Origin: Candidatus Gastranaerophilales bacterium
GTDB lineage: Bacteria; Cyanobacteriota; Vampirovibrionia; Gastranaerophilales; Gastranaerophilaceae
NCBI GenBank assembly: GCA_947626225.1
Contig: CANQRH010000009.1
Location: forward strand, 1-36,362
DNA: 36,362 nt
Direction: 5' to 3'
The notes beneath the pieces were generated by a model that saw only the letters and a program-made list of their open reading frames with translations, was not told where the DNA came from and made no database searches. This document shows, piece after piece, positions 1 through 34,554 of this stretch. Numbering within the stretch: the stretch's first letter is position 1; each line of letters opens with the position of its first letter. The translations under genes were made by a program, and so were the position numbers.

Positions 1-480
1 GCCACTCCCCCACTTTGTAAATGTTCGTGTGACTTTTTATATCATGTGTACTGCTGTGGCGAAGCCACTCCCCCACTGTGTAAATATCCGGGTGACTTTT
101 TTATCATGTGTATTGCTGTGTCGAAGGCACTTCCCCACTTTGTAAATGTTCGTGTGACTTTTTATATCATGTGTACTGCTGTGGCGAAGCCACTCCCCCA
201 CTTTGTAAATGTTCGTGTGACTTTTTATATCATGTGTACTGCTGTGGCGAAGCCACTCCCCCACTGTGTAAATATCCGGGTGACTTTTTTATCATGTGTA
301 TTGCTGTGTCGAAGGCACTTCCCCACTTTGTAAATGTTCGTGTGACTTTTTATATCATGTGTATTGCTGTGCCGAAGGCACTCCCCCACTTTGTAAATGG
401 CCGTGTGATTTCTTATATCATGTGTATTACTGTGGTGAAGCCACCTCTCCACTTTGCGGATGTTTGTGTTTTTATATCAT
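1..480. repeat. Tandem array of 62-63 bp repeats with a GAA-triloop palindrome
   Basis: About 7.7 head-to-tail copies begin near 1, 64, 126, 189, 252, 314, 377 and 440; the last is truncated and diverged. The left end may continue outside the window. Each junction holds a short palindrome, for example GTGGCGAAGCCAC at 56-68. The stem varies between copies in compensating ways (GTGGC/GCCAC, GTGCC/GGCAC, GTGTC/GGCAC, GTGGT/GCCAC) while the GAA loop is constant. Two unit types, with 'TGTTCGTGTGAC' or 'ATATCCGGGTGAC' centres, are interspersed, which suggests duplication of multi-unit blocks. Related units recur at 18943-19052. The array abuts the terminator of the minus-strand gene at 550-1347. 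Open frames of 63-127 aa through it on both strands are a by-product of a unit length divisible by three. Confidence 0.95.
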
Positions 481-484
481 CCGG

Positions 485-513
485 TAAATAAAAAGGAGGC
501 TTTTTAGCCTCCT
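485..513 (-). terminator. Intrinsic terminator of the 550-1347 gene
   Basis: An 8-bp perfect stem (494-501 with 506-513, loop TTTT) reads on the minus strand as a hairpin followed by TTTTTATTTA. It lies about 37 bp past the stop codon of the minus-strand gene. Confidence 0.85.
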
Positions 514-18819: not shown

Positions 18820-18942
18820 AATTAAACGAATTAAATAAACACGAGATAATTTACACTACCTACTACTACACACTAACCTTCTACACACGAGGAATTACGT
18901 AACAGAATTCCGAACTCTATCTTTAAGATAGGGTTTTTTTTT
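18820..18942 (+). ncRNA. Putative small non-coding RNA
   Basis: A strong plus-strand terminator at 18912-18942 has no gene upstream of it on that strand. Just before it lie a hairpin (GGAATT 18891-18896 with AATTCC 18906-18911) and a roughly 45-nt segment (18850-18890) made almost only of A, C and T, with ACACAC and CTACCTACTAC runs, likely single-stranded. An unpaired C/A-rich segment followed by a terminator hairpin is the usual build of base-pairing sRNAs and could pair with ribosome-binding sites. The 5' end is a guess. It sits divergently to glnA, so a nitrogen-related role is possible but unproven. No Rfam family is recognised by eye. Confidence 0.4.
18912..18942 (+). terminator. Intrinsic terminator without an upstream annotated gene
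   Basis: A 10-bp stem with wobbles (GAACTCTATC 18912-18921 with GATAGGGTTT 18927-18936, loop TTTAA) runs into nine Ts. Confidence 0.85.
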
Positions 18943-19052
18943 GTGCCGAAGGCACTCCCCCTCTGTGCAGATGTTCATGGAACTTATTAAATCATGTTGT
19001 GGAAGTCACTCCCCCACTGTGTAAATGTTCGTGGAACTTATTAAATCACTTT
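18943..19052. repeat. Two diverged units of the 5' array repeat family
   Basis: GTGCCGAAGGCAC (18943-18955) is followed by 'ACTCCCCCTCTGTGCAGATG' and a second unit starting near 19006 with 'TCACTCCCCCACTGTGTAAA'. The order of blocks equals that of the array at 1-480, but the tail is 'GGAACTTATTAAATCA'. It lies directly downstream of the minus-strand prepilin gene, as the first array lies downstream of a minus-strand gene. Confidence 0.85.
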
Positions 19053-19928
19053 TTATTGGTCATTTGTAGATTTGGTTTTCGGATACTTCATATTGCTGTG
19101 TTCAATAATCCATTTTGAACATGTCGATCCTTGATCATTCAAATAACAATCTGGATTGGAAGTGGTGCTGGTAACCCTGACTGGTACATTAAAATGTCCT
19201 GTCGGTCTTAACTTGAAATGAAATATATCCTTGCCGTATTGGTTTGGTTTTTTATTAAACCCGTTTACATCCACCCAAAATACAGCACAAATATCTCCGG
19301 GTTGCATTTTATCCCCCGGTTCATCATTACTGCAAGCGAGATGATCATTTCGGGATTTCCCTCCGGAAGATGTTCTCATCCAAGCATCCATTCCGTCAGA
19401 AGTCCTGAATTTCGCATATTGAGTGGTATTATAATTGGTACTCCATTTCTCTCCGCTAAGATAAAGCTTGTCTGACGGTACTTGCAATGAGCAATCCGTT
19501 GTCTCGGCATAAGATTTATTATCTTCTTTAAGTCCTTCTTCCACGCAATCATCAACAACTTTTATATACGGCTTTATATACTTACTATACGTAAGCTGTG
19601 ATCCGCCTAGCATTGCATGTTTGTTATCCCAGTTTTCCGGTGAGCCGTTTTCAAGAATAGAAAGGGCTATTGCCTGTGACATCATGGAATCAAATTTTTT
19701 AACCTTATTAACTGTTACTATTTCCTGATATTTATTAATAATCGGCGGTATAACCAAAACTGCAATTACACCTATTATACCGATAGTGATTAAAGTTTCG
19801 GCGAGAGTAAAAGCTGATTTACTCCGAAAGCTTGTATTATTGCAATCCCCCGATAAAAAATTACGCAAAACATTAATTACACAAGCCTTGCGGGGGGGGG
19901 GGCAATAGCGAAGAATGTTGTTATTCAT
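19053..19928 (-). CDS. Prepilin-like (type IV pilin/pseudopilin-like) protein with a C11 tract in its leader
   Basis: 291 aa. The prepilin signal is SKSA|FTLAETLITIGIIGV with Glu at +5, followed by the long hydrophobic helix and IPPIINKYQEIVTVNKVKKFD, the usual start of the pilin N-terminal helix. The remaining 220 residues form a secreted globular domain with several Cys that could make disulphides (DCVEEG, DCSLQ, LACSNDE, NPDCYLN, STCSKW). Processing by a prepilin peptidase and assembly by a type II/IV-like machine are expected; no such genes are nearby. GGAGGT precedes the ATG. The leader before the cleavage site is unusually long (about 38 residues) and is interrupted by a homopolymer (19892-19902). 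Only 11 Cs keep the frame, so expression may be phase variable. Confidence 0.85.
   Translation of the reverse strand: MNNNILRYCPPPRKACVINVLRNFLSGDCNNTSFRSKSAFTLAETLITIGIIGVIAVLVIPPIINKYQEIVTVNKVKKFDSMMSQAIALSILENGSPENWDNKHAMLGGSQLTYSKYIKPYIKVVDDCVEEGLKEDNKSYAETTDCSLQVPSDKLYLSGEKWSTNYNTTQYAKFRTSDGMDAWMRTSSGGKSRNDHLACSNDEPGDKMQPGDICAVFWVDVNGFNKKPNQYGKDIFHFKLRPTGHFNVPVRVTSTTSNPDCYLNDQGSTCSKWIIEHSNMKYPKTKSTNDQ
19892..19902 (-). repeat. C11 homopolymer (G11 on + strand) in the prepilin leader
   Basis: Eleven cytosines on the coding strand at codons 9-13 encode Cys-Pro-Pro-Pro-Arg. Loss of one C gives a stop (GTG TAA) about 17 codons into the gene. Gain of one gives a stop (AAT TAA) at nearly the same place. 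The tract therefore works as a potential on/off switch in a genome with few G/C runs. A sequencing-length error is the alternative. Confidence 0.7.
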
Positions 19929-25263: not shown

Positions 25264-27537
25264 ATGAATGTGAGAAAAAATTTAAGAGCCCGTGAGCTTG
25301 GCATGCTCATCGGGAGCTCTCGGCAAACGAGAGGTTTAGGTAATTTCAGCCGTTTTAATTATTATGCGTTTTCGCTTGCGGAAATGATGGTAGTCATGCT
25401 TATAATGAGCATTGTTTTGGCTGCGATGGCGCCGATGATTACAACGAGGATAAAAGCCGATCAGGCATTGAAAGCAGCCGGAATAGCATCATCAGGCGGA
25501 AGTTCGGATAACGAAGGCCCGTGGAAATGGGTTGAAAATTCGGATACAGATGCGTATTCAGAGGCTTCAAGAAACATGATAGGTCAAACCGAAGCCGAAA
25601 CTAAAGATGGCGATGCAATGCTGATTATCAATACCGGAGATGATAATAAAGATGGCATTTTGTTCAAGGGTATGGCAAATAGTTACAAGGACAAATTTGC
25701 CGGACATATTAAAATGCTCAGAACAAAATCCGGTTCAAGTTACTATGACAATTTAATTATGGGTACAATAGTTTCATATTCCGAAGGGTGGGATGGAGCT
25801 GTAGCAGTTGGTTTTGATAATCGACCGAATGATTTAAATTGTGTTTTATTCGGACGTGGTAATTCGACTTATTGGCCGTATTCTACGGCAATTGGATTTA
25901 ATAATTCCGTAAGTGCCAAAAGAACCCCGGGCTATTCTACTGCAGTGGGGTATGGAAACAGTTCAAATTCTTCATATACTCTGTTAGTTGGGTATCAGAA
26001 CGAAACCAAATCCGATTATCAAGGACCTGTAAATTTTAGTCAAAATCAAGGTCCTTATGGTGATTATATATATTATCCGACAGAAAATACTCTGGTAGGT
26101 TATAAAAATGCAGTAATTGCAAACGGTGCCTCTGTATTCGGATACTCTAATACGGTAAGGGCAAATAATGCATCGGCTTTTGGGTATAAAAATAATGTAA
26201 TTGTAAGCCGAAGCCATACAAGTGATGTTCCGTCCTTTGCGTGCGGAACTTCCAATACCGTATATACAGGATTTGCAGTAGGTTCTAATAATTCAATTGA
26301 TGGCGGCTATTTTACGGTTGGTAAGAGTAATTCATGTACAAACGGATCTGCAGTTGGCGTAAGTAATACCGCAACAGGCGGAATGGCATTTGGAACCAGT
26401 AATAAAACTTCTGCAGGTTATGTTTTTGGATATGGTAATAATTCTTCTTCATCCGATGTTTTTGGTTTTGCCAATAGTGTTACATCAACAGGTTGTGGCG
26501 AGACTACAGTCATAGGTTGTCGTAATGAAATTACCGTCGATTCTAATTATAGTTTTGTGGCAGGGCATAAGAACAGTATTTCTTCCCCTTCCTCTTATTA
26601 TGGTTCTAACACTGTGGTCGGTGTTTCAAATAAAGTTAGTAATGGCAAGGGCATGGCAACAGTAGTGGGATTAGGTAATGAAGTCAGCGCTCAAGAAGCG
26701 GTAGCTATGGGGCGTAAGACTATTGCTTCGGGAGATTATTCTTTGGCTGTGGGTACTGAGACAACCAGCTGGGGTTCATACACAAAGGCTTCCGGAAAAT
26801 ACTCAGTGGCGGTTGGGGGCAGTTGTACGTCATCAGGAGAGTATGCATTATCTTTTGGTACAATAAGTACAGCATCCGGAATCGGTTCTATAGCTATAGG
26901 ACACAGAGCTGTTGCTAAAGGAGATTATTCTGTTGCCATCGGCTCTACCCAAGATTCCGGTACAGTTGAACCACCAAAAGCTAATGCTGACTGGTCTGTA
27001 GCAATCGGATATGGCGCAGTAGCAGATAACCCTTATGATGTTGTGATTGGTACGCCTTATTATTCTACAGTCAGAGTCCCCATCTTACAAGCATCGATTC
27101 TTAGGGTTGGCAACGGATCTTCCGGCAACGAAGTTCTTTTAGTTAATGGCGGGGTGGTTACCGTCGACGGTACACTTAAAGTTAACGGTACAACGGTCCA
27201 ATCGGACAAACGCCTAAAATATATTAAAGGTGAAAATAAAAACGGATTAGACGCAATCAAAAAGATAAAAGTCTACAACTTCACCTTCAAAAAAGATAAA
27301 GACAAAGAACCCAGAGTCGGCGTCATAGCACAGGAACTTCAAAAAATTCTTCCCGATGCCGTTAAAAAAGGCTCAGACGGGTTCTTAACCATTCGTATAG
27401 ATGACATCATCTATACGCTAGTCAATGCCGTAAAAGAACTTGATAAAAAAGTTTCCGAACTAACCCAAACCTTAAAACAGGTTCAAGCGGAACAAAAACG
27501 AATTAATCAGCGGCTCGATGCGTTGGAGAGAAAGTAA
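25264..27537 (+). CDS. Prepilin-signal / YadA-like head repeat / peptidase-S74 chaperone fusion
   Basis: 757 aa. (1) Residues 1-36: a basic leader. (2) YYA|FSLAEMMVVMLIMSIVLA, a prepilin peptidase site and anchor helix. (3) About residues 150-620: repeats of the trimeric-autotransporter head type, built on [ST]xAxGxxNxxxA, for example STAVGYGNSSNSSYTLLVGY, SAFGYKNNV and SVAIGYGAVADNPYDVVIG. (4) From about residue 640: VQSDKRLKYIKG, then GVIAQELQKILPDAVKK and IDDIIYTLVNAVKELDKK, the intramolecular chaperone of phage tail fibres (peptidase S74), with the self-cleavage Ser647 and Lys652 present, then a coiled-coil tail. Known: S74 domains trimerise fibres and then cleave themselves off. Inference: a trimeric, self-trimmed fibre held by a pilin-type membrane helix. 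Confidence 0.85.
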   Translation: MNVRKNLRARELGMLIGSSRQTRGLGNFSRFNYYAFSLAEMMVVMLIMSIVLAAMAPMITTRIKADQALKAAGIASSGGSSDNEGPWKWVENSDTDAYSEASRNMIGQTEAETKDGDAMLIINTGDDNKDGILFKGMANSYKDKFAGHIKMLRTKSGSSYYDNLIMGTIVSYSEGWDGAVAVGFDNRPNDLNCVLFGRGNSTYWPYSTAIGFNNSVSAKRTPGYSTAVGYGNSSNSSYTLLVGYQNETKSDYQGPVNFSQNQGPYGDYIYYPTENTLVGYKNAVIANGASVFGYSNTVRANNASAFGYKNNVIVSRSHTSDVPSFACGTSNTVYTGFAVGSNNSIDGGYFTVGKSNSCTNGSAVGVSNTATGGMAFGTSNKTSAGYVFGYGNNSSSSDVFGFANSVTSTGCGETTVIGCRNEITVDSNYSFVAGHKNSISSPSSYYGSNTVVGVSNKVSNGKGMATVVGLGNEVSAQEAVAMGRKTIASGDYSLAVGTETTSWGSYTKASGKYSVAVGGSCTSSGEYALSFGTISTASGIGSIAIGHRAVAKGDYSVAIGSTQDSGTVEPPKANADWSVAIGYGAVADNPYDVVIGTPYYSTVRVPILQASILRVGNGSSGNEVLLVNGGVVTVDGTLKVNGTTVQSDKRLKYIKGENKNGLDAIKKIKVYNFTFKKDKDKEPRVGVIAQELQKILPDAVKKGSDGFLTIRIDDIIYTLVNAVKELDKKVSELTQTLKQVQAEQKRINQRLDALERK

Positions 27538-27540
27538 ATT

Positions 27541-27900
27541 CGGACGTTGAAAAGTTAATAGAAAGTTATTAAGTTACTAGGTTAATAGTTACTAAGTTCG
27601 TTTCGGTTCGCTATGCGAACGAAATATAAAAAAACGACCGCAGTGCGCGCAGCACCCGCCGGAGGCATAAAGGCTATTAAAAGTTACTAAGTTATTAAGT
27701 TAGTAGTTATTAGGTTCATATCGGTGCTTCGCACGGAAATAGAAAAGTTACTGGGTTAATAGTTACTAGGTTATTAAGTTCAAATAGGTGCTTCGCACGG
27801 GAATGAAAAGTTACTAAGTTAATAGTTATTAAGTTATTAGGTTCTTATCGGTTCGCTACGGTTCGCTATGCGAACGGAATTTAAAAAGATTCTCATTTAA
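27541..27900. repeat. Repeat-rich 3' region: GTTAxTA heptamers alternating with GTGC-TTC-GCAC palindromes
   Basis: Three to four imperfect units of about 70-100 bp consist of a run of heptamers (GTTACTA, GTTAATA, GTTATTA, GTTAGTA joined by A or G), then a palindrome such as GGTTCGCTATGCGAAC or GGTGCTTCGCAC followed by GGAAAT. The GTGC-TTC-GCAC core is the opposite-strand form of the GAA-triloop palindrome of the array at 1-480. No gene is present. Depending on terminator use, it may be the transcribed 3' UTR of the S74 fibre gene. Confidence 0.85.
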
Positions 27901-32779: not shown

Positions 32780-32956
32780 GTAGGTTGAGCATACTTGCCC
32801 GACAAAATAAAATATACTTACTCTGCCGAGAAAATGATTATTGTAAAATGACAGTTGGTTTGATTATTTTGAGCAGGGAATTAGATTATTGAAAAATGTA
32901 GGTTGGCATTACTATGCCAACAATTAAAATTTGTCGGATTAGTAAATCCGACCTAC
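32780..32956. mobile_element. MITE/REP-like element, copy 1 (177 bp)
   Basis: Ends are imperfect inverted repeats of about 26 bp: GTAGGTTGAGCATACTTGCC... at 32780 and the complement of ...GGATTAGTAAATCCGACCTAC ending at 32956. Inside, hairpins share the form GTYGGxxx-TACT-xxxCCRAC, for example GTTGGCATTACTATGCCAAC (8-bp stem) and GTCGGATT-AGTA-AATCCGAC. It carries no protein-coding capacity. A second direct copy lies at 34377-34554 with near identity, including parts of the right flank (ATAACTTT). With the hairpin at 33013-33043 it accounts for most of the 400-bp gap between DUF378 and the glycosyltransferase. Confidence 0.8.
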
Positions 32957-34376: not shown

Positions 34377-34554
34377 GCATGTTGGGCATACTTGCCCGGC
34401 AAAATAAAATATACTTACTCTGCCGCGAAAAATGATTATTGTAAAATGACAATTGGTTTGATTATTTTGAGCAGTGAGTTTGATTATTTAAAAATGTAAG
34501 TTGGCATTACTATACTAACAATTAAAATTTGTCGGATTAGTAAATCCGACCTAC
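34377..34554. mobile_element. MITE/REP-like element, copy 2 (178 bp)
   Basis: Direct copy of the element at 32780-32956 in the same orientation, with scattered substitutions. The first hairpin is better paired here (TTGGGCA-TACT-TGCCCGG), while the middle one is broken (GTTGGCATTACTATACTAAC). The right end CCGACCTAC and the flank ATAACTTTTA are shared. It fills the gap between the XRE gene and the adhesin remnant and has no coding capacity. Confidence 0.8.

Follow-up and report, generated by a model that had tools for sequence, protein, structure and literature searches.

The array that opens the stretch of DNA analysed here (the window, which is the whole of contig C9, 36,362 bp, in a 1.59-Mb genome of 12 contigs) belongs to a family with some 50 related units, distributed over 14 places in this genome (C9 and contig C12 being counted as one place). 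On balance, we think that these units are small mobile or copied non-coding dispersed repeats of a Gastranaerophilales-type (Melainabacteria) lineage, which land at the 3' ends of transcripts and are then amplified in tandem. We read them as gained, dispersed repeats because the arrays lie in sense orientation behind 3' ends and are absent at two orthologous sites in relatives. The exact start of arrays at terminator T-runs is new here and is the feature that distinguishes this family.

In the window, the tandem array runs along the forward strand from position 1 to 456 (to about 483 if the last partial unit is included) with a period of 62-63 bp, and comprises seven complete or nearly complete units and one cut at the contig edge. 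A 188-bp block of three units is duplicated, positions 1-188 and 189-376 being 99% identical. The sequence GTGNNGAANNCAC occurs 8 times in the window (0.13 expected), and the conserved core of one unit, TCCCCCACTGTGTAAAT...TATCATGTG (69-110, forward strand), has its equivalent in every unit. To the right, the array (1-483) is bounded by what looks like the terminator hairpin (488-513, reverse strand) of the convergent gene at 550-1347. To the left, the contig edge lies inside the array; the end of contig C12 also lies inside an array, with the same first unit, so that the lengths given here are those of the assembled part. The two contigs probably flank one array that the assembly did not cross.

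Genome-wide, as judged from searches and fetched stretches, the unit consists of a 13-nt hairpin (5-bp stem, loop of three bases) and, behind it, a core of about 43 nt, with the consensus GTGGCGAAGCCACTCCCCCACTGTGTAGATGTTCGTGTGACTTnTTATATCATGT; the number of units varies with the method (44 DNA matches, the weakest of them doubtful, 48 profile matches and 50 covariance-model matches). Units of one array are more similar to each other than units of different arrays (78% versus 70%, a difference reached in 0 of 2000 permutations), which, combined with the 99% block duplication, fits a scenario of rare arrival and frequent local amplification; once in place, units would multiply through slipped replication or unequal crossing-over. 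Behind the 5S rRNA gene, the units possess the core and no hairpin, indicating that the hairpin is usual and not essential. Several familiar kinds of sequence were considered and rejected. A coding array is incompatible with the 62- and 59-bp spacings, which break the reading frames, and with internal ORFs that are not conserved; in a CRISPR one would see near-identical repeats and unrelated spacers, whereas here the whole 63-bp unit repeats; and a MITE does not agree with a hairpin at one unit end only, nor with the lack of target-site duplication at the sites compared. Two patterns searched in viral contigs as a sign of phage origin gave no match, and a search of Rfam families at gathering score in ten sources returned rRNA genes as the sole matches, hence no known RNA family.

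The window hairpins, all on the forward strand, read GTGGC-GAA-GCCAC (56-68, with copies at 181-193 and 244-256) and GTGCC-GAA-GGCAC, which is changed on both sides (369-381). A third form, GTGTC-GAA-GGCAC (118-130, copy at 306-318), had been taken for another compensated variant and has a T.G wobble instead; the last unit of the array carries GTGGT-GAA-GCCAC (432-444), with a T.G closing pair. The sequence-only reading of this DNA had proposed that the outer stem changes on both sides while the fold is kept, and had staked this on an excess of paired substitutions among copies across the genome. That excess was found: in a set of 34 distinct units, each of the five stem pairs shows changes on both sides, and pairing cells amount to 90.6% versus 79.6% in shuffles (0 of 500 as high), with at most 47% pairing in slid-partner controls. 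When 29 of these units are combined with 15 from G008, a member of the same genus, 90.8% are paired versus 73.8%, and there are 33 two-sided cells versus 7.2; all these statistics should be read with the caveat that units of one array share descent and that many units stem from few events.

It is the fold that is kept and not the heptamer GCGAAGC, as indicated by the variety of stems and loops. The stems include GTGGC/GCCAC, GTGCC/GGCAC, GTGAT/ATCAC, GTGGT/ACCAC, GTAGC/GCTAC and GCGGC/GCCGC in the present genome, and GCCGAC/GTCGGC, CCCGC/GCGGG and GCGGAC/GTCCGC in G008. The heptamer d(GCGAAGC), previously placed at the centre of the family, is present in three of the seven complete array hairpins, and its 5 occurrences in the window (3.06 expected) amount to no enrichment; a special role for it as a mini-hairpin does not agree with loops and closing pairs that vary and with units that have no hairpin at all. 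The related claim that the closing C-G pair and the loop are nearly universal is not confirmed: besides GAA, the loops AAA, GTA and TGA occur, and the closing pair is C-G in 23 of the 34 units genome-wide, T-A in 8 and T.G in 2.

How paired changes arise deserves some caution, since templated correction of imperfect palindromes can produce them without selection. One could imagine a neutral tandem repeat in which such (quasipalindrome) correction during replication is all that keeps the palindromes perfect. This would account for paired changes without strand asymmetry (departures from pairing are balanced, with five T.G or G.T and five A.C, and so give no sign of selection on one RNA strand) and for the persistence of a hairpin-less array. 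However, it explains neither the dispersal of the units nor their exact position at T-runs, and an independent, long-lasting retention of the fold with many different stems, which would speak against it, is seen in part across G008; we give this explanation hardly any credit. If the units are instead copied repeats that land at transcript 3' ends, the copying machinery may recognise or process the hairpin in single-stranded DNA.

The arrays lie in intergenic DNA, and with a simple terminator test 8 of the 14 start no more than 6 nt from where a terminator T-run ends, a distance found for 0.95% of positions generally and for 3.2% of positions in 38 control 3' flanks; seven of the 14 start at offset 0 or -1 (expected 0.5%). 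An additional array (C1:77595) lies behind a terminator-like hairpin with a T-run of just three. The window offers a clear example, in which the T-run of an intrinsic terminator (18914-18942, forward strand) ends exactly where a second array begins; its two units (18943-19052, forward strand), which repeat searches assign to the same family as the array at 1-483, as had been suspected, extend from this terminator to the stop codon of a prepilin-like gene on the reverse strand (19053-19928). Both inspected arrays of G008 also begin directly behind T-runs, although the automatic test scored just one of them. In 12 of the 14 cases the plus strand of the unit runs in the direction of the upstream transcript 3' end or terminator (p 0.013), and the proposed location at the 3' ends of genes is borne out. 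At C1:39.0 kb and C3:108.5 kb, the array spans the space between two convergent terminators and has a cut unit at its end. The suggestion that the repeats protect mRNA 3' ends is unlikely for most copies, since these lie beyond the T-run of the terminator.

If the family is indeed mobile, its units would arrive by targeted insertion or copying at terminators and, less often, at stop codons. A more specific version, which we put forward only tentatively, is a repeat that inserts specifically at terminator T-runs, recognised via the hairpin of the terminator or its own, by the action of an enzyme that is not a RAYT and whose kind has so far had no link to small repeats; the 3' ends of transcripts might provide the priming site or the template. 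Group IIC introns insert directly behind intrinsic terminator stem-loops, hence at the same kind of site; in contrast, the present units are non-coding and 56-63 bp long, and neither an intron RNA nor a reverse transcriptase was seen at the array sites. Against targeted insertion, three arrays abut stop codons and not terminators (those of the HIT, SNF2 and efflux genes), two lie in divergent regions, and no empty site with a clean target duplication was seen, so that the two sites compared do not show a precise insertion.

The same observations might be interpreted in terms of transcription, with selection favouring arrays that act between convergent genes as insulators or back-up terminators, for instance as C-rich Rho-loading sites behind leaky terminators or as the sole terminators after a stop codon. 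The sense orientation behind transcripts in 12 of 14 cases, the exact adjacency to T-runs, the C-rich CTCCCCCACT and the replacement of an ancestral terminator by an array at the efflux gene all agree with this idea. However, transcription seldom reaches the DNA beyond a working terminator, T.G and A.C departures are equally frequent (5 and 5), whole units fold no better than shuffles, and the family in its present form is absent from 31 of the 33 genus members; we therefore consider such a function rather unlikely. The hypothesis of mobile or copied repeats does not need a host function to explain the arrays, since the interval between convergent transcripts would tolerate them.

Two short terminator-ended stretches located ahead of arrays (18860-18942 in the window, and L049 near C8:29475) share ACGAGGAATTAC...AATTCCGA. 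They are possibly small RNAs; neither has a match in Rfam.

Comparison with relatives points to a gain of arrays at the two sites compared. Between the HIT gene and speE, relatives have short spacers and no array, and in the present genome the array, of two units, begins within the final HIT codons, which lengthens the protein and alters its end (LGGEAALPTV* versus, e.g., LGGY*). For the outer-membrane efflux gene, more than ten relatives keep the stop codon, 3' UTR and terminator, while here the TAG runs straight into the array. No clean target duplication was seen at the HIT and efflux sites, and the flanking sequence differs at both too. Within the genus, related units are found in G008; one further member yields no more than a single weak match (E 2e-4). 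Weaker tandem matches exist in G063, from another genus of the family (model E-value 6e-5, in one genome of the 286 searched and with a rough calibration). A wider profile gave weak matches only on 65 sampled loci of other genus members; the best two, located upstream of the HIT gene in two species (E 0.004), lie like the others in reverse at gene starts, and all were judged to be chance matches. In about ten relatives (L205-L232), the T-run of the efflux-gene terminator is directly followed by a GTGC-TAC-GCAC-type palindrome, often with GTAGATA in addition. The wide profile gave no demonstrated homology of these to the GAA family, and palindromes placed after terminators may be a more general trait of the genus. 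In G008, a short ORF containing 9-11 consecutive G occurs several times (L052 at about 4690 and 11290 in locus coordinates, and the start of L054), in some cases at contig ends, and is possibly a phase-variable repeat family.

The idea that the units are REP elements copied by a RAYT (a Y1 transposase), raised by the sequence-only reading, has some points in its favour: the GAA units are palindromic, extragenic and located at gene 3' ends, as RAYT-associated REPs are, and the genome encodes one intact Y1 (IS200-like) transposase of RAYT size. However, this gene (C4:95448-95762) is flanked solely by GTCGGATT-type palindromes, GTAGGTCGGATTxxxxAATCCGAC, with no GAA unit among its flanks. These GTAG-tagged REPs (GTCGGATTxxxxAATCCGAC) have 69 near-copies genome-wide, two of them in the window (32933-32952 and 34531-34550). 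Moreover, the alignment of units reveals no GTAG or CGTC tag on either side of the hairpin, the units are in direct and not alternating orientation, and there is no co-occurrence with a RAYT: G008 contains related units but lacks any Y1 match, and GAA units are missing from five genus members in which Y1 matches exist. The RAYT of this genome, with REPs of its own, is thus a very unlikely source of the GAA units, and we attach little probability to this origin. A genuine RAYT with its own REPs provides, in the same genome, an internal control for the GAA units.

BOX elements of Streptococcus are modular intergenic repeats with a tandemly variable module in a stem-loop; the sequence of the present family is unrelated to them, and no end modules resembling boxA or boxC were seen. 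The family comes closest to those small interspersed repeats for which no transposase is known, among them STAR elements (PMC3532100) and CGTC-tagged REPs (PMC3733652). The STAR elements of Staphylococcus are likewise interspersed intergenic direct repeats, composed of a short motif (14 bp, GC-rich) and a spacer of about 40 bp, whose arrays expand and contract, are lineage-specific and have no known mechanism of origin or spread (PMC3532100). Head-to-tail motifs, spacers of about 40 bp and intergenic arrays of variable number are all present here, but the STAR consensus is not: conservation here falls on a hairpin that covaries and on a core of 43 nt, and terminator T-runs mark the array starts. 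REPs tagged with GTAG or CGTC, with or without a RAYT (no transposase is known for CGTC REPs), are similarly small and palindromic and lie for the most part behind coding regions, in the gaps of convergent or unidirectional gene pairs (PMC3733652, PMC2817692), whereas the present units are untagged, longer and head-to-tail, a cognate RAYT being excluded as far as sequence tells. Short repeats without known transposase are common in bacteria, and this family offers a sharp and testable landing site.

Prepilin genes might also be involved, the unit having perhaps begun as a 3' flank of prepilin-like genes and spread by recombination between paralogues. In G063, prepilin genes ending GWKIPDDYPIKF* have tandem units that set in within their last codons and contain CGGGC-AAA-GCCCG; one G063-type unit is present in our genome behind a GWKIPKDYPHKF* prepilin gene; and prepilin 3' ends make up 5 of 28 array flanks where about 1 is expected, if 3% of some 1,500 genes (a gene number that we estimated) are prepilin genes. 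However, most arrays here have no prepilin neighbour, and the homology of the G063 unit depends on the roughly calibrated match in a single genome mentioned above; we thus find this origin improbable.

The genome contains an unusually large set of about 45 prepilin-type N-methylation motifs in 1.6 Mb (for example at 19752-19826 and 25360-25428). The repeats at 27541-27900, thought earlier to share the loop of the GAA family, in fact belong to a different, AGTTA-rich family with hairpins GTGC-TTC-GCAC and GTTC[GA]C-NNC-G[CT]GAAC, and they follow genes for YadA-head/S74 prepilin-like proteins. In the region 25264-27900, a gene whose prepilin-like product has both YadA-head repeats and an S74 chaperone domain precedes the AGTTA-rich tandem array with its varying hairpins. 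About ten YadA-head/S74 prepilin-like genes of this genome share a 3' tail of this kind, and such tails could allow recombination between surface-protein genes.
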